From positions 4,128,755 to 4,192,754 of the forward strand of contig NZ_CP083985.1 in the NCBI RefSeq assembly GCF_020172665.1: 64,000 nt of DNA, given 5' to 3'. The notes under the pieces are model-generated. The model saw only the letters and a program-made list of their open reading frames with translations, was not told the DNA's origin and searched no databases. Below are positions 34,026-59,797 of this stretch, piece by piece. Each line of letters starts with the position of its first letter. Position 1 is the first letter of the stretch. This stretch comes from [Mycobacterium] zoologicum (GTDB lineage Bacteria > Actinomycetota > Actinomycetes > Mycobacteriales > Mycobacteriaceae). The translations under genes were made by a program, and so were the position numbers.

Positions 34026-35299
34026 TTCCAGAGATCTTGACTCCCGACGGCAAGATTCGGCTCCCGGCCGACCTGGATGCGGTCACCGACGTCGGCGCCG
34101 AGGAGGAGCCCTTCGATTCCGCTGCGGTGGAACGGATCTGGCAGGCGGTACGGCACTGGTACTCAGCCGGCATGCACCCGGCGATCCAGTTGTGCCTGCG
34201 CCACAACGGCCGGGTGATTCTCAACCGCGCGATCGGGCACGCCTGGGGCAACGCCCCGTCCGACCCCGCCGACGCCGAGCAGGTGCCCGTCACCACCGAC
34301 ACCCCGTTCTGCGCGTATTCGGCGGCCAAGGCGATCAGCTCGACCGTGGTGCACCGGCTCGCCGAACAGGGTCACTTCTCGCTGGACGATCGGGTGACCG
34401 ATTACCTTCCCGATTACGGCCGTAACGGCAAGGCGCGCACCACGATCCGCCAGGTGATCACCCACAGCGCCGGGGTGCCGTTCGCCACCGGGCCGCGCCC
34501 GGACGTGCAGCGCGTCGACGACAGCGACTACACCCGTGAGCAGTTGGCCAACCTGCGGGCCATCTACCCGCCGGGGTGGGCGCACATGTATCACGCGCTG
34601 ACCTGGGGGCCGCTGGTCCGCGAGATCGTCTCGGCGGCCACCGGCCGCAACATCCGCGACATCCTGGCCACCGAGATCCTTGCGCCCCTGGGCTTCCGGT
34701 GGACGAATTTCGGTGTGGCCGAAGAGGACGTGCCACTGGTGGCGCCCAGCCACGCCACCGGCCGCCCGCTGCCCGGGCCGATCGCCGCGGTGTTCCGCAA
34801 GGCTATCGGCGGGACCATGCATCAGATCATCCCGTTCACCAACACCCCGCTGTATCTGACCAGCGTCATCCCGTCGTCCAACACCGTCTCGACGGCATTC
34901 GAGCTGTCCCGGTTCGCCGAGATCTGGCGACGCGGAGGCGAACTCGACGGCGTGCGGGTGGTCTCACCGGAGACCATGGCCGCCGCGACGGCCCAGTGCC
35001 GCAGGCTGCGCCCGGATGTGGCGACCGGGCTGGTGCCGCTGCGCTGGGGCACCGGATTCATGCTGGGCTCCAACCGATTCGGCCCGTTCGGGCGGGGCGC
35101 GCCGGCGGCGTTCGGGCACCTGGGTCTGGTCAACGTCGCGATCTGGGCGGACCCGGCGCGCGGACTGTCGGCCGGGCTGATCTCCAGCGGCAAACCGGGC
35201 AGCGACCCGGAGGCCAAGCGCTACACCGCGTTGATGGATCGGATCGCGGCCGAGATCCCCGCTACCCGACGGGGCGGCTACAGCGGCGACGGCGGCTGA
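34022..35299 (+). CDS. lipE: Beta-lactamase-fold esterase LipE
   Basis: A 425-residue serine esterase with the class C beta-lactamase/penicillin-binding fold. The SxxK nucleophile motif is YSAAK near residue 97; the Tyr of the YxN-like motif lies in MYHALTWG, and FGHLGLVN near the end replaces KTG. Order echA21-thioesterase-lipE is close to the M. tuberculosis one. ATG 34022 has its 4-bp overlap with the thioesterase. The last 22 bp overlap the convergent GH25 gene. Confidence 0.9.
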   Translation: MIPEILTPDGKIRLPADLDAVTDVGAEEEPFDSAAVERIWQAVRHWYSAGMHPAIQLCLRHNGRVILNRAIGHAWGNAPSDPADAEQVPVTTDTPFCAYSAAKAISSTVVHRLAEQGHFSLDDRVTDYLPDYGRNGKARTTIRQVITHSAGVPFATGPRPDVQRVDDSDYTREQLANLRAIYPPGWAHMYHALTWGPLVREIVSAATGRNIRDILATEILAPLGFRWTNFGVAEEDVPLVAPSHATGRPLPGPIAAVFRKAIGGTMHQIIPFTNTPLYLTSVIPSSNTVSTAFELSRFAEIWRRGGELDGVRVVSPETMAAATAQCRRLRPDVATGLVPLRWGTGFMLGSNRFGPFGRGAPAAFGHLGLVNVAIWADPARGLSAGLISSGKPGSDPEAKRYTALMDRIAAEIPATRRGGYSGDGG

Positions 35300-35946
35300 G
35301 CCGGACGCGGACCGATGCCGCAGGCCGACGCGAACTGCTGCGGGGTCAGTCCGTCGGCGGAATTCATGTCGCACCGCCCGAAGGGCGGGCAGCCCTCCGG
35401 CAGCCCTCCGCCGTAACCGTTCCCGTCGGTGTACTGGTGGGCCACCTTGCCCGGATACGGCGGGTTGGAGCCGTAGGCGGCGATGATCAGCCGGATGTCG
35501 TCGGGCTTGGTGGGCCAGAGCCGGTTGAGATCGTAGACGTTGCCGTAACCGATTATCCGGGAACGGTTTCCACACCACTCGGCCAGATTCCAGTACAGCC
35601 GATTGATCGGATCGGATTGGTCGCCGCCCGGATTGCCGCCGGACTCGACATCGAGCATCAATGACACCCGCGGGTGCAGGCCGCCGTTCTCGGCGAACAT
35701 CGCCTGCACCGTGGCGGCATTGGACTGCCAGGTCGCCGGCCGCACGTAGGTGTAGACGATCCCGAACGTCAGGCGGCCGTCATCGAGCGCGTTGTGCATC
35801 CAGGCGTAATTTCGGGCGAAATTGCGGTCGCGGTAGGTGCCGTCGCAGACCCGGATCGACAGCACCCGGTAGGGGTAGGAATCATTGACCGGGACTTGAA
35901 ATTCGGAGACATCGGCAAACAGCGTGTTGGGCTGTGCGAGCTGCAT
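35278..35946 (-). CDS. GH25-type muramidase-like protein, phage-lysin resemblance
   Basis: A 222-residue protein with the GH25 lysozyme layout: N-terminal strand ADVSEFQ (DxSxxQ), catalytic-type pair DVES in SLMLDVESGG near residue 97, and the late VAHQYTD strand corresponding to the conserved WQY. Such domains occur in mycobacteriophage endolysins. No signal peptide or binding domain is seen, so a cytoplasmic or phage-holin-dependent protein is implied. It is divergent from the LysR gene and overlaps lipE by 22 bp. The activity is inferred from motifs only. Confidence 0.72.
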   Translation of the reverse strand: MQLAQPNTLFADVSEFQVPVNDSYPYRVLSIRVCDGTYRDRNFARNYAWMHNALDDGRLTFGIVYTYVRPATWQSNAATVQAMFAENGGLHPRVSLMLDVESGGNPGGDQSDPINRLYWNLAEWCGNRSRIIGYGNVYDLNRLWPTKPDDIRLIIAAYGSNPPYPGKVAHQYTDGNGYGGGLPEGCPPFGRCDMNSADGLTPQQFASACGIGPRPAQPPSPL

Positions 35947-35995
35947 TCGGTTACGTTATCGCACCTCCGCGCTCGATGATTCCTATAGTGAATCG

Positions 35996-36913
35996 ATGGA
36001 ACTGCGGCATATCAGGTACCTGTTGGCGGTCGCCGATCATCAGAACTTCACCCGGGCGGCCGAGGCACTGCACGTCTCCCAACCGACACTGTCCCAACAG
36101 ATCAAACAACTCGAGCACACGCTCGGGGTCGAACTGTTCGATCGCTCCGGCCGTACTGTCCGGCTCACCGACGCCGGGTCTGCCTACGCACACCATGCCC
36201 GACTGGCGCTGCGCGACCTGCAGGCCGCCGAGCGGGCCGTGCACGACGTGCGCGATCTGTCCCGCGGCAACCTGCGGATCGCGATGACTCCCACCTTCAC
36301 CGCATATCTGCTCGGGCCGCTGATTCACCGGTTCCGGTCGGCCTACCCAGGCATTCGACTGACCGTGCTGGACACCAGCCAGGATCGCATCGAGGCCGAC
36401 CTGTTGGCGGACCGACTCGACCTCGGCATCGGCTTCGCCGGTCCACACGCCGCCGGAATCGACGCGCAGACGTTGTTCACCGAGACGCTCGGCCTGGTCG
36501 TCGGATCGGGCCATCCACTCGCGGCGACCCCCGCCCGGGTGCCGGTCTCGCAGCTGGCCGACACACCGCTGGGGCTGCTCAGCGCCGACTTCGCCACCCG
36601 GTTACACGTAGACGACTACTTTGCGGACTGTAAAGTGCCGCAAAACATTGCGATCAACGCGAACTCGATCAGCGCGCTACTGGAGCTGGTACGCCACAAC
36701 GTCGTCGCCACCGTATTACCGGATGCGATCACCAGCGAACGCCCCGACCTGCACCCGGTTCCCCTGGACCCGCCGCTGCCGACCCGCACCGTGGCACTGC
36801 TGCAGCGCGCCGGCGTCTACCGGTCCGCCGCGGCGCGGGCATTCGCCGAGACCGTCGACGCGGTGGTAGCCGAGCGGCGGTGCCCATCAGGCAAGTATTG
36901 GTCGTACCAATAG
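35996..36913 (+). CDS. LysR-family regulator (CynR-like), intact copy
   Basis: A 305-residue LysR protein. The winged HTH is at residues 1-60 (MELRHIRYLLAVADHQNFTR, ALHVSQPTLSQQIKQLE), and the substrate domain follows with GNLRIAMTPTF and the late VATVLPDAI segment. It ends in PSGKYWSYQ. The promoter side faces the GH25 gene with 49 bp between starts. It heads the cassette LysR, noncoding element, protein A, protein B, which is duplicated at 39283-40428. Confidence 0.92.
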   Translation: MELRHIRYLLAVADHQNFTRAAEALHVSQPTLSQQIKQLEHTLGVELFDRSGRTVRLTDAGSAYAHHARLALRDLQAAERAVHDVRDLSRGNLRIAMTPTFTAYLLGPLIHRFRSAYPGIRLTVLDTSQDRIEADLLADRLDLGIGFAGPHAAGIDAQTLFTETLGLVVGSGHPLAATPARVPVSQLADTPLGLLSADFATRLHVDDYFADCKVPQNIAINANSISALLELVRHNVVATVLPDAITSERPDLHPVPLDPPLPTRTVALLQRAGVYRSAAARAFAETVDAVVAERRCPSGKYWSYQ

Positions 36914-36955
36914 TTCCACGTGGATCTGCGTATTGGACAGTGCGCCCGTTGCCTT

Positions 36956-36998
36956 CCATGCTGAATGTCATCTGAGTGAACACTTTTCAAACAGATGG
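36956..36998 (+). promoter_or_regulatory. Conserved 43-bp element before protein A, copy 1
   Basis: This stretch matches 39689-39731 at 42 of 43 positions, although the genes around it differ at many positions. It has CATCTG (36969-36974) and CAGATG (36992-36997), able to form a stem with a 17-nt loop, and ends 8 bp before the start of protein A. It may be a LysR binding site, a promoter or a leader hairpin. Confidence 0.6.
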
Positions 36999-37006
36999 AA
37001 CATGGT

Positions 37007-37264
37007 ATGCAATTTTTGAAGTTGAACTTGATCAACAAGCACGGGGTCTCCGACCGACACGGCGAGGTGCTGATCGCCACGTCTGAAATCGAGTCGGTGC
37101 GCTCGTTCATCCATGCCGATCACATGCTGTCGCACCACGAGGTCGGTTCGATCATCACCACCAAGACCGGTGACAAACACCATGTCTCGCAACACACCAA
37201 TGAGATCGCCGACATGCTGCGGTCAGCGGCCGATCACGAACAAGACTGGGTGGCCATCCGATGA
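37007..37264 (+). CDS. Small conserved protein A, copy 1
   Basis: An 85-residue soluble acidic/His-rich protein (MQFLKLNLINKHGVSDRHGE..., HADHMLSHHEVGSIITTKTG). It is close to the protein at 39740 along its full length. ATG 37007 was chosen because similarity between the copies begins there; ATG 36995 is inside the conserved element. It overlaps protein B by 4 bp (ATGA). No known family is recognised. The ITTKTGDKHHVSQHTNEIA part looks like a small beta domain plus helix. Confidence 0.75.
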   Translation: MQFLKLNLINKHGVSDRHGEVLIATSEIESVRSFIHADHMLSHHEVGSIITTKTGDKHHVSQHTNEIADMLRSAADHEQDWVAIR

Positions 37265-37707
37265 CGATCGCGGTATACGACGACGAGGCCCTGGGCGTGC
37301 CCGAGCTGGCCCAACTCGAACGATGGCTGCACGTCCCCCGCGGGCACCGTATCGCGTTGATCAACGCACCCGTCGATTCGGCACTGCGACTGTTGGCCGT
37401 CAGCCGCAGGAACCCCTACGACGCCGACGTGATAATCGCTTTCGCGACGCGGCGCAAGGAACTTGCCCGGCTGAAGGCGGCCTACCGTACCGCCTCCGCG
37501 AGCCGGCCGACGTGGATTGTTCACCCCGATCCGGACCGGCCCGGGACGGACCTGCGCTGGCAGTGGCTCATAGCCGCGCTACGCCAGTACGGCGTCAACG
37601 CGGTGCAACAGGTTCCGATCGGCCGGCTCTGGTCGGCGGTGCTGTTGCAGCCGATCCACGACGCCCATCCGGGCGAGGAACTGGTGGGCCATCCGGGTTC
37701 TTCCTAG
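37261..37707 (+). CDS. Protein B, DUF3052-like, copy 1
   Basis: A 148-residue soluble alpha/beta protein. The strand-helix order (RIALINAP, VIIAFATRR, PTWIVHPDPDRPGTDLRW, VNAVQQVPIGRLWSAVLLQP) is like DUF3052 proteins of actinobacteria, in which a late strand with a conserved Trp-Ser is typical. The relation is tentative. Coupled to protein A. The second copy is at 39994. Function is unknown. Confidence 0.72.
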   Translation: MTIAVYDDEALGVPELAQLERWLHVPRGHRIALINAPVDSALRLLAVSRRNPYDADVIIAFATRRKELARLKAAYRTASASRPTWIVHPDPDRPGTDLRWQWLIAALRQYGVNAVQQVPIGRLWSAVLLQPIHDAHPGEELVGHPGSS

Positions 37708-37710
37708 CCG

Positions 37711-38427
37711 ATGCCTACCACCCCGCGCCTGTGGCTGATGACGCCCGTGGCCATTGGGCTGCTCGTTCTCGGCTGTCACCACCACCAGCCTCCGGGTTCG
37801 TCAACCCGTTCTGGGGCAATCACTTTGGAAGATGCCGCGATGGCAGCGATGCCACCGGGATGGCAACCCCATGTCGTCACTCCGATCAGTCAGCAAGAGG
37901 CCCAGGACACCGTGTTGGGCTACTTCGAGATGACGCTCCAGGCCCTTCCACCGGGAGCCGTCATCGTCGCCACCGACTACGGCGGAGCCGAAACCACCGG
38001 ACCGTGCAACGGCGCGGTCGCCGGCACCGACCCGCCGCAGGAGTTCTCGGCCATCGGTCAACTCGAGACGCCCGGACCGGGGTCGGACCGCACCGTCGTC
38101 GCCGTCGGCGACACCTGGAGGAGTTGGGGCTGGTGGGTATTCGAGCGAGACGGTCTTGCCAAGCCCAACAGATTCGGCTACGCCCCGGACGGTTACGCCT
38201 TCCAGATCCAGGTATCCGACCCGCCCGGATACTCGCCGATCGTCAGCGCCATTTCACCCTGCTACTCGCACGCCGCGGCACGTGCTGACGCCCCGTTTCC
38301 GGCGATGATCTCCGCCGACGGCCGGCTCGACGACGTCGGAGCCTCGCGCCCCGTTTCGTACGGCATACAGTTCGTCAGCCATAACGGCGTCAGCGGGCGG
38401 TCGCATGCCTTCCGAAGTGCTCGGTGA
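37711..38427 (+). CDS. Putative secreted lipoprotein
   Basis: A 238-residue protein with a lipoprotein signal: VAIGLLVLGC puts the lipidated Cys at about residue 22, followed by HHHQPPG. The mature part has Trp-rich strands (DTWRSWGWWVFERDG) and a Cys pair, and no enzyme motif that I recognise. The gene begins 3 bp after protein B and its last 38 bp overlap the convergent hydrolase gene. It has no copy in the second cassette. Confidence 0.78.
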   Translation: MPTTPRLWLMTPVAIGLLVLGCHHHQPPGSSTRSGAITLEDAAMAAMPPGWQPHVVTPISQQEAQDTVLGYFEMTLQALPPGAVIVATDYGGAETTGPCNGAVAGTDPPQEFSAIGQLETPGPGSDRTVVAVGDTWRSWGWWVFERDGLAKPNRFGYAPDGYAFQIQVSDPPGYSPIVSAISPCYSHAAARADAPFPAMISADGRLDDVGASRPVSYGIQFVSHNGVSGRSHAFRSAR

Positions 38428-39238
38428 GCAGCTTGGTCAGCCGCTGCGGCGCCTCGTCCGGAATCCAGTGACTGATCCCTTCCAGCGTCTGCAACTCCCA
38501 CGGACCGGTGACGCGCCGCTGGGACAGCTCATGGCCCTTGCGGCCGACGGCGGTGTCGCCGTCGCTCCACACCTGCAGGGTGGGAACCGGCACCTTGCGC
38601 CGCAGAATGGCCGGCGGCGTCAGCGGCATGCCCCGATACCAGTTCAGCGCGGTTCGGGCGCTGCCGAGCCGCTGCAGTTCGGCGAAATCCCTGGCGGCGT
38701 TCGCCTTGCTCTGGCCGGTTCCGTGCAGGTTGGCGATGAAGCGGGATTCGTTGCCCAACAACATCTCCGGCAGCCACGGCAGCTGGAAGAACAGCATGTA
38801 CCAGGACTTGAGGGCCTGGCCGCTGCGGGCCATCGACTTGATGAAGGCCAGCGGATGCGGAACCGATACCGCACTCAGGGTCTTGACCAGGTCAGGGCGC
38901 TCGGCCGCGACGCCCCACGCGACGGCGGCTCCCCAGTCGTGGCCGACAACGTGCACCGGACCGACACCGGCGGCGTCGATCAGGGCGACGGCGTCGGCGA
39001 CCAGCTCGGTCAGCCGGTAGTCGCGGCGCCGCGTCGGCAGCGCGCCGGGTGTGTAGCCGCGCTGATCCGGCGTCAGCGTCCGGAACCCTTGATCGTTCAG
39101 CAGTTCGGCCACCTCCACCCAGGACGACGAGGTCTGCGGAAAGCCGTGCAGCAGCACGACCGGGACGCCGTCCTGCGGGCCGGAGTCGCGGACGGCGAAA
39201 ACGAGACCCTGTCGTTCGAATGTGGTCAGTCTGGACAT
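38390..39238 (-). CDS. Alpha/beta hydrolase (epoxide hydrolase/dehalogenase-like)
   Basis: A 282-residue alpha/beta hydrolase. HGFPQTSSSW is the oxyanion segment, VVGHDWGAAVAW carries the Asp nucleophile in an HDWG context, the acid Asp lies in WSDGDTAV and the His in ISHWIPDEAP. The motif set points to epoxide hydrolases of the EphF/EphA kind. It is divergent from the LysR remnant and convergent on the lipoprotein gene. The substrate is unknown. Confidence 0.88.
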   Translation of the reverse strand: MSRLTTFERQGLVFAVRDSGPQDGVPVVLLHGFPQTSSSWVEVAELLNDQGFRTLTPDQRGYTPGALPTRRRDYRLTELVADAVALIDAAGVGPVHVVGHDWGAAVAWGVAAERPDLVKTLSAVSVPHPLAFIKSMARSGQALKSWYMLFFQLPWLPEMLLGNESRFIANLHGTGQSKANAARDFAELQRLGSARTALNWYRGMPLTPPAILRRKVPVPTLQVWSDGDTAVGRKGHELSQRRVTGPWELQTLEGISHWIPDEAPQRLTKLLTEHFGRHATAR

Positions 39239-39282
39239 ATAGCCATCTTCTCAGTCCTGCCGATCATTTCTATAGTTGATCG

Positions 39283-39646
39283 ATGGAGTTGCGACATGCC
39301 GATGGGCCTGCTCAGCTCGGACTTCGCCACTCGGCTGCACGTGAACTCCTATTTCGCGGAATACAAAGCGCCGCACTATGTTGCGATCGAGTCGAACTCG
39401 ATGAGCGCGCTATTGGAGTTGGTGCGGCGCAACGTCGTCACAACCGTGTTGCCGGCCGCGATCACCAGCGAGCAGGCCGACCTGCACCCGGTGGTCTTGG
39501 AGCCGTCACTGCCGATCCGCACCGTACAACTGCTGCAGCGTGGCGGCATCTACCAAACTGCCGCGGCACGCGCATTCAGCAGCACCTTGGACACGGTGGT
39601 GGCCGAACGGCGGTGCCCCTCGGGCAAGTATTGGTCATATCAATAG
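39283..39646 (+). pseudogene. LysR remnant with internal deletion (second cassette copy)
   Basis: The first codons (ATG GAG TTG CGA CAT, MELRH) equal the start of the intact LysR at 35996, and the leader CTATAGT...GATCGATGGA is also shared. Directly after, in another frame, the sequence continues with GLLSSDFATRLHVNSYFAEY and runs to the same PSGKYWSYQ end. Roughly 185 codons are missing, including the whole DNA-binding domain. A 116-residue frame from ATG 39296 stays open and could make the effector-domain half, but a regulator is no longer encoded. Confidence 0.85.
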
Positions 39647-39688
39647 CTCCCGGTGGATCTAAGTATTGGACATCGATTACGTCGGCTC

Positions 39689-39731
39689 CCATGCTGAATG
39701 TCGTCTGAGTGAACACTTTTCAAACAGATGG
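39689..39731 (+). promoter_or_regulatory. Conserved 43-bp element before protein A, copy 2
   Basis: Matches 36956-36998 with one difference, which changes CATCTG to CGTCTG and still allows G-U pairing with CAGATG (39725-39730). It ends 8 bp before protein A copy 2, with GGGGGCGG ahead of the ATG. It is kept although the LysR gene upstream is broken. Confidence 0.6.
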
Positions 39732-39739
39732 GGGCGGCG

Positions 39740-39991
39740 ATGCAATATCTGAGGTTCAACCTGATCAACAAGCACGGGGTCTCTGACCAACGTGGCGAGG
39801 TGTTGATCGCCCCGTCCGAGATCGAGTCGGCGCGCTCCTTCATACACACCGACCACATCCTGTCCCATCACGAAATCGGCGCGATCATCACGACCAAGAC
39901 CGGTGACAAGCACTACGTCTCACAACACACCAACGAGATCGCCGAGATGCTCCGCATGGCCGACGATCGCGAGAGAGGCTGGATTTCCTAA
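39740..39991 (+). CDS. Small conserved protein A, copy 2
   Basis: An 83-residue paralogue of the protein at 37007 (MQYLRFNLINKHGVSDQRGE, HTDHILSHHEIGAIITTKTG, VSQHTNEIAEMLRMADD). The His-rich middle is kept. ATG 39740 is preferred, with GGGGGCGG upstream, and ATG 39728 is in frame. The next gene starts 3 bp after the stop. The reading frame is intact, so the copy may be functional. Confidence 0.75.
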   Translation: MQYLRFNLINKHGVSDQRGEVLIAPSEIESARSFIHTDHILSHHEIGAIITTKTGDKHYVSQHTNEIAEMLRMADDRERGWIS

Positions 39992-39993
39992 CA

Positions 39994-40428
39994 ATGACAA
40001 CTGCCCTGGATTACGAGCTCGAGATCGTCGACCCACCCGGTTTTGCCCAACTGGTGGAGCGACTGAAGCTCGGACACGACCGCCGTATCGCGGTCATCAA
40101 TGCACCGCTGCATTCAGCGTTGCGCCAACTGCCGGTCAGTCGCGAGAACCCCTACGGCTCCGACGTAGTCATCGCGTTCGCGATGCGACGAGTAGATCTG
40201 GCCTGGTTGAAGCCGGCCTATCGGGCCGCCTATGCGCGTCGGACGAGTTGGCTCGTCTATCCCGAGCCGACCCGCCCCGGAACAGACCTGCGCTGGGACT
40301 GGTTCCTGGCGGCGCTACGTCAGTACGGCGTCCACGTCATCGAGCAGATTTCCATCGACAGAAACTGGTCGGCAGTCCAGTTGATGTCGAAGCAGGCCGG
40401 CGATCAGGACGCGACCCTGGTGGGGTAA
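39994..40428 (+). CDS. Protein B, DUF3052-like, copy 2
   Basis: A 144-residue paralogue of the protein at 37261. Matching segments are RRIAVINAPLHSALRQLPVS, NPYGSDVVIAFAMRR, PTRPGTDLRWDWFLAALRQYGV and IDRNWSAVQL. The frame is intact. It ends just before a convergent tRNA-Ser. The role is unknown. Confidence 0.72.
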   Translation: MTTALDYELEIVDPPGFAQLVERLKLGHDRRIAVINAPLHSALRQLPVSRENPYGSDVVIAFAMRRVDLAWLKPAYRAAYARRTSWLVYPEPTRPGTDLRWDWFLAALRQYGVHVIEQISIDRNWSAVQLMSKQAGDQDATLVG

Positions 40429-40435
40429 AAAATTG

Positions 40436-40522
40436 CGGTGGCGGAGGGATTTGAACCCCCGGACGGTTTTGGCCGTCTCTCGCTTTCAAGGCGAGTGCAT
40501 TAGGCCGCTCTGCCACGCCACC
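40436..40522 (-). tRNA. tRNA-Ser(TGA)
   Basis: An 87-nt class II tRNA on the minus strand with acceptor GGTGGCG/CGCCACC, anticodon loop CTTGAAA (TGA), long variable arm (GACGGCCAAAACCGTC) and T arm GGGGGTTCAAATCCCTC. It reads UCA. It is the fourth serine tRNA of the window. Confidence 0.96.
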
Positions 40523-59380: not shown

Positions 59381-59797
59381 CTCTTTGCCCTCCCAATACG
59401 CGTCTCATATGCACGCTCAGCTAGTTGCGATCACCGTAAGTGAAACTGCGCCTTCAGCAGAAAAAGTGCTTCTACCAGCGGTGGAACGCTTCCGCGTCCG
59501 GTGTCCGATGGTCCTGCTGCCTGGCTCCGCTCGCTTTCACCTGGGATGATACGAGATCGAGATTAGACCGTAAGTTAACTGAGCGGAAGCCAAAAGCTCA
59601 AATTTTTCTATGTTACTGCTCAGTAATTTGATACCCCATACTCTGACCTGCGGTTTTGAGATCCTCAGTCCCAATCCGACTAAGGCTCAATCAGCCGACT
59701 CTGCGGCCGGCCTACCAAAAACCTGTCGCGGGGGAGGGTTTCCGTCAGTCACGGCGGCGACTTGTGAGTATTGATCCGCGGCTGGCACACTCCTCGC
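59381..59797. promoter_or_regulatory. Leader region of PGRS copy B and promoter region of rmlA
   Basis: About 417 bp without a supported gene. The half near PGRS copy B repeats the leader of copy A, including the AAGTTAAC-nn-AGCGGAAGCCAAAAG block (59572-59596). The other half should contain the rmlA promoter. No RNA gene or operator was recognised. Confidence 0.5.

Follow-up and report, generated by a model that had tools for sequence, protein, structure and literature searches.

A CynR-family regulator gene, a candidate operator and two diverged A-B gene pairs at a mycobacterial tRNA-Ser locus

We describe a gene cassette of the order LysR-A-B, in which a LysR-type regulator gene precedes the genes for two small proteins, A and B, in a 64-kb window (the whole stretch of DNA analyzed) of a 4.43-Mb single-contig mycobacterial genome, G000 among the genomes compared. 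Mycolicibacter species are the nearest named relatives found in a contig scan. The cassette is present twice, both times on the plus strand, at 35996-37707 (copy 1) and 39283-40428 (copy 2), ahead of a tRNA-Ser gene. This confirms the repeated order that had been read from the sequence beforehand: A1 and A2 share 74% and B1 and B2 share 55% of their amino acids, and the LysR repeat covers 300 nt at 77% identity, far above chance. We consider it fairly probable, from the sequence features set out below, that the locus is a CynR-type regulon in which the cyanase genes have been replaced by A and B and in which copy 2 is run in trans by the regulator of copy 1.

Copy 1 begins with LysR1 (35996-36913, plus), an intact regulator gene of 305 codons. 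Its last codons overlap a palindrome, TATTGGTCGTACCAATA (36896-36912, plus), the candidate operator, which is followed by a promoter-like element at 36933-36962 (plus) composed of TTGGACA (36933-36939), 17 nt and CATGCT (36957-36962). A1 (36995-37264, plus, with a possible alternative start at 37007) is an orphan protein of 89 aa whose gene overlaps by 4 nt (ATGA) that of B1 (37261-37707, plus), a DUF3052-like protein of 148 aa. A lipoprotein-like gene, so called from its N-terminus, which accompanies copy 1 only (37711-38427, plus), and a resident alpha/beta hydrolase gene (38390-39238, minus; PF00561) lie between the cassettes, where the original prediction had placed them. Copy 2 starts with a regulator remnant, LysR2 (39283-39646, plus), which retains the first five codons, the upstream side and an open-frame C-terminal part of 114-116 codons (39296-39646). 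Blastn and alignment with the intact orthologue in MYC017 (Mycolicibacter sp., locus L016, genome G583) show that 554 bp are missing at the junction of 39296 and 39297; this length corresponds to about 185 codons and is not divisible by three, so that the earlier account of a deleted and frame-broken regulator proved accurate. The C-terminal part scores 105 bits against the CynR model (profile 191-292); without a DNA-binding domain, it does not qualify as a functional regulator. Behind it stand the copy-2 operator TATTGGTCATATCAATA, with one mismatch (39629-39645, plus), a promoter-like element at 39666-39695 (plus; TTGGACA 39666-39672, 17 nt, CATGCT 39690-39695), A2 (39728-39991, plus; 87 aa, 99% identical to the MYC017 protein) and the DUF3052-like B2 (39994-40428, plus; 144 aa, 94% identical to the MYC017 protein). 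A and B are intact in both copies, as had been stated.

The original prediction held that nothing known fits this system, a view that is not supported on two counts, as the regulator belongs to the CynR family and B is DUF3052-like. The CynR equivalog model NF008416, which has a cut-off of 277 bits, gives LysR1 a score of 444.2 bits, and E. coli CynR is the best solved relative of LysR1 (E 1.2e-55). It carries the Pfam domains HTH_1 and LysR_substrate, which, together with a T-N11-A palindrome, make it a LysR-type regulator. Identity to cynR reaches 54% for E. coli records and 57-64% for Streptomyces and Embleya copies. Relatives of LysR1 at 58-72% identity occur in 13 of 148 mycobacterial genomes (E 1e-70, the window's own included), three of which carry an A-B or B cassette. 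In other mycobacteria, these relatives adjoin genes for cyanase (cynS), carbonic anhydrase (cynT) or a cytidine-type deaminase; Pfam identified one example of each (L044 for cynS, L050 for cynT, L048 for the deaminase), PF02560 also matched the cynS of G050, G087, G109 and G141, and the other neighbors are named by resemblance. The cassettes of the window genome are not linked to cyanase or carbonic anhydrase genes, and A-B stand there instead. At three loci (L047, L048 and L049, in G130, G022 and G069), a CynR-lineage regulator precedes the deaminase gene instead of a cyanase gene. In L047 and L049, an amidohydrolase-like gene is also present, oriented divergently to the regulator gene. We found no description in the literature searched of a deaminase gene as a CynR-type target.

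The candidate operator was compared in 12 cassettes, namely the two window copies, L014-L017, G101, G623, G667, G086, G612 and G600. A TATTGG-N5-CCAATA palindrome is present in all 12, with 11-12 of its 12 arm positions matching, and its center lies 29 nt before TTGGACA in every case; the spacing from TTGGACA to CATGCT is 17 nt in all but G086, where it is 18 nt. Across the set, the palindrome scores 5.5 of 6 pairs at the 29-nt offset and at most 3.2 at other offsets. The T-N11-A signature of LysR-type sites is contained in it as TTGGTCGTACCAA, 29 nt before the -35-like box. The last LysR codons coincide with the palindrome in most cassettes, and in G612 and G600 LysR ends ahead of a palindrome that is still present, which argues that it has been selected as a DNA site rather than as a protein tail. 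The window genome holds one perfect match (copy 1), one match with one mismatch (copy 2) and 14 with two, against 0.03, 1.3 and 30 expected by chance from composition, and 45 sites with up to two mismatches when the pattern is read backwards. Sites with at most one mismatch are found only at the two cassettes, and the case for the copy-2 operator rests on the position of its one-mismatch site, not on its rarity. One of the two-mismatch sites outside the cassettes lies in the window itself, at about 59382-59398 (G000:C1:4188136-4188152), and such sites are expected by chance. The A promoters were not listed by a sigma-70 consensus scan.

A related arrangement accompanies cynR in other genomes. 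The sequence GTATTGGAC or a close form follows the regulator gene in 8 of 10 cynR relatives, before cynS, cynT or the deaminase gene, and the remaining two (L052 and L053) have a divergent cynS and no such downstream box. In the eight loci, a degenerate palindrome with 3-5 of 6 pairs each stands at the same 29-nt distance. A reverse form, TATAG-N-GTCCAAGAC, occurs upstream of four Streptomyces or Embleya cynR genes, two of which adjoin annotated carbonic anhydrase and cynS genes, while the records of the other two are unannotated there. At L045 (G050:C1, about 55 kb), an operator-like site of the A-B kind precedes a cyanase gene. The first site of E. coli CynR (IR1) is centered at -66 in the available text of PMC5002191; the A-B spacing would agree with this, as a transcription start immediately behind the CATGCT box would put the palindrome at about -65. 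In the open-licence literature, we found no description of this cassette or of an actinobacterial CynR operator.

Taken as a mechanism, the CynR-type regulon would work as follows. LysR would bind the palindrome, a recognition site into which the 3' end of its own gene extends, and, together with an inducer, would engage the TATTGGAC site at the -35 box, thereby turning on A-B. The A and B genes overlap or lie almost end to end, and coupled translation of the two is probable. LysR1 from copy 1 would act on both operators, since its DNA-binding domain and that of the LysR2 orthologue that is intact in MYC017 agree at 58 of 62 positions and differ at just 4, residues 20-42 being identical throughout. 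The dependence of copy 2 on the intact LysR, which had been raised as a possibility, is thus plausible, its operator having been kept. As to the inducer, 62 ligand-domain columns do not vary among E. coli CynR and ten regulators of cyn or deaminase genes; 48 of these columns are identical in all 11 A-B regulators, and no residue is both fixed in the A-B regulators and absent from the others. This conservation makes a small anion, such as cyanate or a related one, the first candidate. A may be an optional partner of B, and the pair may serve a stress or binding role.

Several observations weigh against this interpretation or limit its reach. The genome's one PF02560 match is a cyanase gene at C1:780579 (780579-780779, L136), far from the window, and the 10 kb around it contain no LysR, A, B or TATTGGAC box; because this cyanase sits elsewhere without them, cyanate handling does not need the cassette. 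The other 14 of the 62 ligand-domain columns differ in at least one A-B regulator, with A146G in 10 of 11, so that the effector may have changed. At the DNA level, part of the conservation of the operator reflects shared ancestry, as the 12 cassettes are related, and the 14 two-mismatch sites lie elsewhere in the genome. The palindrome of the cyn set is weaker, with a mean of 4.25 of 6 pairs and a second offset nearly equal at 4.1, and only four of the eight cyn sites match the A-B operator consensus at 9-10 of 12 positions, the other four matching at 7-8. In M. abscessus, CRISPR interference knock-down of the LysR gene beside cyanase left cyanase mRNA unchanged, according to the available text of PMC10269454, in which no inducer is named. 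Activation, operator binding and the inducer are themselves predictions.

Comparison with known systems places the cassette close to, and yet apart from, the CynR-cynTS(X) regulon of E. coli and its actinobacterial cynR-cynT-cynS counterpart. The two share the regulator family and a conserved ligand-domain core, as well as the geometry of recognition site and TTGGAC box, with the targets directly behind the operator. In contrast, the targets of the cassette are A and B rather than cyanase and carbonic anhydrase, its regulator and targets are codirectional with an operator that overlaps the regulator's last codons, and the CTAT that follows TTGGAC in seven of the eight cyn loci is absent from the A-B cassettes. 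A mycobacterial precedent for one LysR regulator serving two gene clusters is CutR of Mycobacterium sp. JC1, a LysR-type protein whose binding repeats precede both of a duplicated pair of CO dehydrogenase gene clusters (PMC12609908). In the available text of that source, CutR resembles the present case in that one regulator has sites at two clusters, with one repeat at the end of an upstream open reading frame, and differs from it in its CO dehydrogenase targets and in its operator, TTAAG-n6-CTTAA; a second regulator in truncated form is not mentioned there. In M. abscessus, the LysR gene MAB_0055c beside the cyanase gene MAB_0054c is linked to susceptibility to rifamycins (rifabutin), again in the available text of PMC10269454. 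This regulator of 294 aa belongs to the LysR1 lineage and stands beside cyanase as in G050 (L045); unlike the cassette, the locus as described there has no A-B. If our reading of the operator is true, the signature of palindrome, 29 nt and TTGGAC could be used to find CynR targets in other mycobacteria and would extend to this M. abscessus regulator. The reading also provides two unnamed small proteins with a regulatory home, a CynR-type switch, and predicts an inducer class that can be tested.

MYC017 has a single intact cassette, with LysR intact, at the same tRNA-Ser site, and its DNA is 96% identical to copy 2 and about 77% identical to copy 1 by blastn. In MYC017, MYC098 and MYC340 (L014-L016, of which L014 is G639 and L015 is G441), the aligned ends of the hydrolase gene and of an endolysin-like gene are 12-15 nt apart. 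In the window, these two genes are separated by about 2.5 kb, approximately 35932-38408 from blastn breakpoints and junction alignment, containing LysR1-A1-B1 and the lipoprotein-like gene, and the same comparisons do not find this insert in the three relatives. In trees built from B and from the C-terminal DNA of LysR, copy 2 groups with MYC017 and MYC098 at 99-100% bootstrap, and copy 1 falls among Mycolicibacter without a resolved position; the LysR protein tree likewise places copy 1 apart. The insert has a G+C content of 64.8%, compared with 67.6% for the window, and no direct repeat of 6-12 nt is common to the 60-nt stretches at its two edges. The identities, the relatives without the insert and the tree positions together argue that copy 2 is the resident cassette and that copy 1, rather than a product of recent duplication, is either a diverged cassette that arrived at the site or a paralogue of great age. 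A second, diverged cassette with the lipoprotein-like gene would thus have inserted about 0.9 kb upstream of what is now the LysR2 remnant. The "duplicated" cassette of the original prediction is therefore not supported in the sense of an in-situ tandem duplication followed by decay of the second regulator. Such a history would account for the shared gene order and strand and for repeats lying only 2.7 kb apart from start to start, but the 96% and 77% identities, the separate branching of copy 1 and the relatives without the insert make it improbable; a possible variant of it is an ancient duplication later lost in all relatives sampled. At 55-77% identity, the copies differ too much for one to be an assembly collapse or chimera of the other.

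The state of copy 2 allows more than one view of what remains there. The resident cassette would have lost most of its regulator gene and retained the promoter, A, B and, because it overlaps the final LysR codons, the operator. The idea that copy 2 is decaying, with LysR2 lost first and A2-B2 silent and disappearing, is in our view rather doubtful. In its favor, the LysR2 deletion is large and out of frame, the copy-2 operator has an arm mismatch not present in MYC017, and the B2 codons that could be assigned show four nonsynonymous and three synonymous changes on the window lineage (three and five on the MYC017 side), out of 11 nonsynonymous and 10 synonymous differences between the two genomes. 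Nevertheless, A2 is unchanged on the window branch, its one synonymous and one nonsynonymous difference both lying on the MYC017 side; B evolves fast in other compared pairs too, with ratios of nonsynonymous to synonymous substitution rates of 0.20-0.50; and L017, whose regulator is intact, carries the identical arm mismatch. The LysR2 fragment differs from MYC017 by three nonsynonymous and eight synonymous changes, of which four synonymous ones fall on the window side and two of the three nonsynonymous ones cannot be placed. As these changes are mostly synonymous, the deletion is probably recent. This also bears on the suggestion that translation from an internal ATG yields the fragment of 114-116 aa and that the product partners LysR1 in a dominant-negative or effector-sink role, a possibility for which we see very little prospect. 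The frame is open from the ATG at 39296 to the original stop, and only 3 of 114 codons differ in amino acid from MYC017. Against this stand the missing DNA-binding part, linker and about half of the ligand domain, the need for the 3' end to stay anyway for the operator, and the apparent recency of the deletion, which means that conservation says little. A wider proposal, possible though tentative, is that the mycobacterial CynR gene is a portable switch and that the window holds a regulator-less satellite cassette, consisting of operator and targets, which is driven in trans by the adjacent diverged arrival. Because the operator-promoter lies at or just behind the regulator's 3' end, any downstream gene set would become a target, and the targets would include cyanase, carbonic anhydrase plus cyanase, nucleoside deaminase, B alone and A-B. 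Under the CynR-type regulon that we favor, the locus would offer a ready-made case for the study of trans-control, in that the genome combines two diverged target operons with only one intact regulator of this kind.

The distribution of A and B helps to judge what the pair may be. Searches recovered A from 2 of 148 genus genomes and, among 296 phylum genomes, from the window's own only; a contig scan, which reaches close relatives only, added five further assemblies (MYC098, MYC340, MYC017, M. acidiphilus and one mycobacterial metagenome-assembled genome, MAG). With a threshold of E 1e-6, B is present in 20 of the 396 genus genomes searched, and a LysR of this lineage precedes it in ten (G000, G583, G639, G441, G600, G612, G623, G101, G086 and G667). 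Among these ten, A is intact in four, shortened to a 51-codon open frame in G600 and G612 (starting with TTG in G612), and gone with B kept in G623, G101, G086 and G667. In the MAG G048 (L018/L019), the order is B then A, with stop and start overlapping and no LysR found nearby, and the other nine B genomes have no A and no LysR of this lineage in the stretches examined. LysR genes of another kind, about 28-30% identical, stand beside B in G117. The original prediction had set itself at risk should A and B be found mostly apart. This is what B shows, as 5 of its 20 genomes have an intact A alongside, and it does not hold from the side of A, since every A found adjoins B. In G048, contigs C15 and C292 (L084 and L085) carry B-A between an alpha/beta hydrolase gene and large nonribosomal peptide synthetase-like genes, and A was counted once there, as the two contigs overlap by 141 bases. 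About 9.6 kb at both ends of G600:C1 (L074 and L075) are 98.6% identical, with LysR frame-broken in one; this is probably an unresolved assembly overlap, and one cassette was counted. In M. acidiphilus (L017, 6951-14836), LysR-A-B is directly followed by FHA-domain, EccB and FtsK/SpoIIIE-domain genes of a type VII secretion locus.

These patterns speak against A-B being a toxin-immunity or toxin-antitoxin pair under LysR control, one of the roles first suggested, which we now regard as very unlikely. Two small adjoining genes that are repeated and patchily distributed would suit such a pair. However, neither A nor B has a match in PADLOC or NCBIfam, and the only Pfam match is at chance level (A1 to phage gp11, E 0.089). 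Moreover, the gene order is reversed in the MAG, and of the 10 genomes having this LysR beside B, 6 retain B although their A is shortened or absent. B thus persists without a full-length A, which cannot then be an antidote that B requires.

B1 and B2 have no Pfam or NCBIfam match of their own and stay below the gathering threshold of the Pfam model DUF3052 (PF11253), which 2 of 22 B relatives match weakly (best E 0.021). Nonetheless, a B profile aligns with PF11253 over 106 columns with a probability of 96.3% and an E of 2e-9 in hhalign, which marks B as homologous to DUF3052, and a distant protein in G182 is matched by both profiles. The genome holds a separate canonical DUF3052 gene at C1:1862040. 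In Streptomyces, a canonical DUF3052 gene invariably adjoins one for a possible thiol-specific antioxidant protein, according to the available text of PMC4255298. The AlphaFold2 model of B has a mean predicted local distance difference test score (pLDDT) of 77.5 and a predicted template modeling score of 0.73, with a moderate resemblance to methyltransferases, and the S-adenosylmethionine (SAM)-dependent methyltransferase fold is among the closest known systems for B. The fold matches are middling, a SAM-binding glycine-rich motif is not visible in the B alignment, and B has no solved-structure match. We infer that B is a DUF3052-like protein with a methyltransferase-like fold and that a binding or scaffold function is more probable for it than an enzymatic one. 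In G030 (C51, 6529-7377, minus; L025), a protein of 283 aa carries a STAS domain followed in frame by a B-like domain, a fusion that suggests a binding or regulatory role and a tie of the B family to partner-switching regulation.

A is small, with invariant histidines at H16, H40, H43, H47, H62 and H67 in the alignment, and its AlphaFold2 model is poor (mean pLDDT 57). Its best comparisons with solved structures, viral capsid proteins and phage gp11 at E 0.13 or worse, were dismissed as chance. A resemblance to FlbD was considered: Pfam FlbD matches none of seven A members, three of the seven match phrog_8458 (flagellar protein) weakly, with a best E of 0.059, and no FlbD was found in this genome. 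A phage or plasmid origin was also set aside, as A has no relative in viral_contigs or phages (plasmids were not searched for A), and B has none in phages and one weak plasmid match at 32% coverage (viral_contigs were not searched for B).

The tRNA-Ser (TGA) gene (40435-40522, minus), the only match in an Rfam search, is the locus border in most relatives and is not seen in L017. The neighborhood of the hydrolase gene is preserved in L014-L016 and in G101, G623 and G667. The lipoprotein-like gene has no family match in Pfam or NCBIfam; 36 of 148 genus genomes, counting that of the window, contain homologues of it, and in 19 fetched loci (L087-L105), no LysR, A or B lies within about 1.5 kb of them. 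The endolysin-like gene (35278-35946, minus) has PHROG endolysin matches (best E 3.3e-18) and no Pfam match. It is retained near the cassette in MYC017, MYC098, MYC340 and M. acidiphilus, and in G612 it lies on the opposite side of the tRNA gene.

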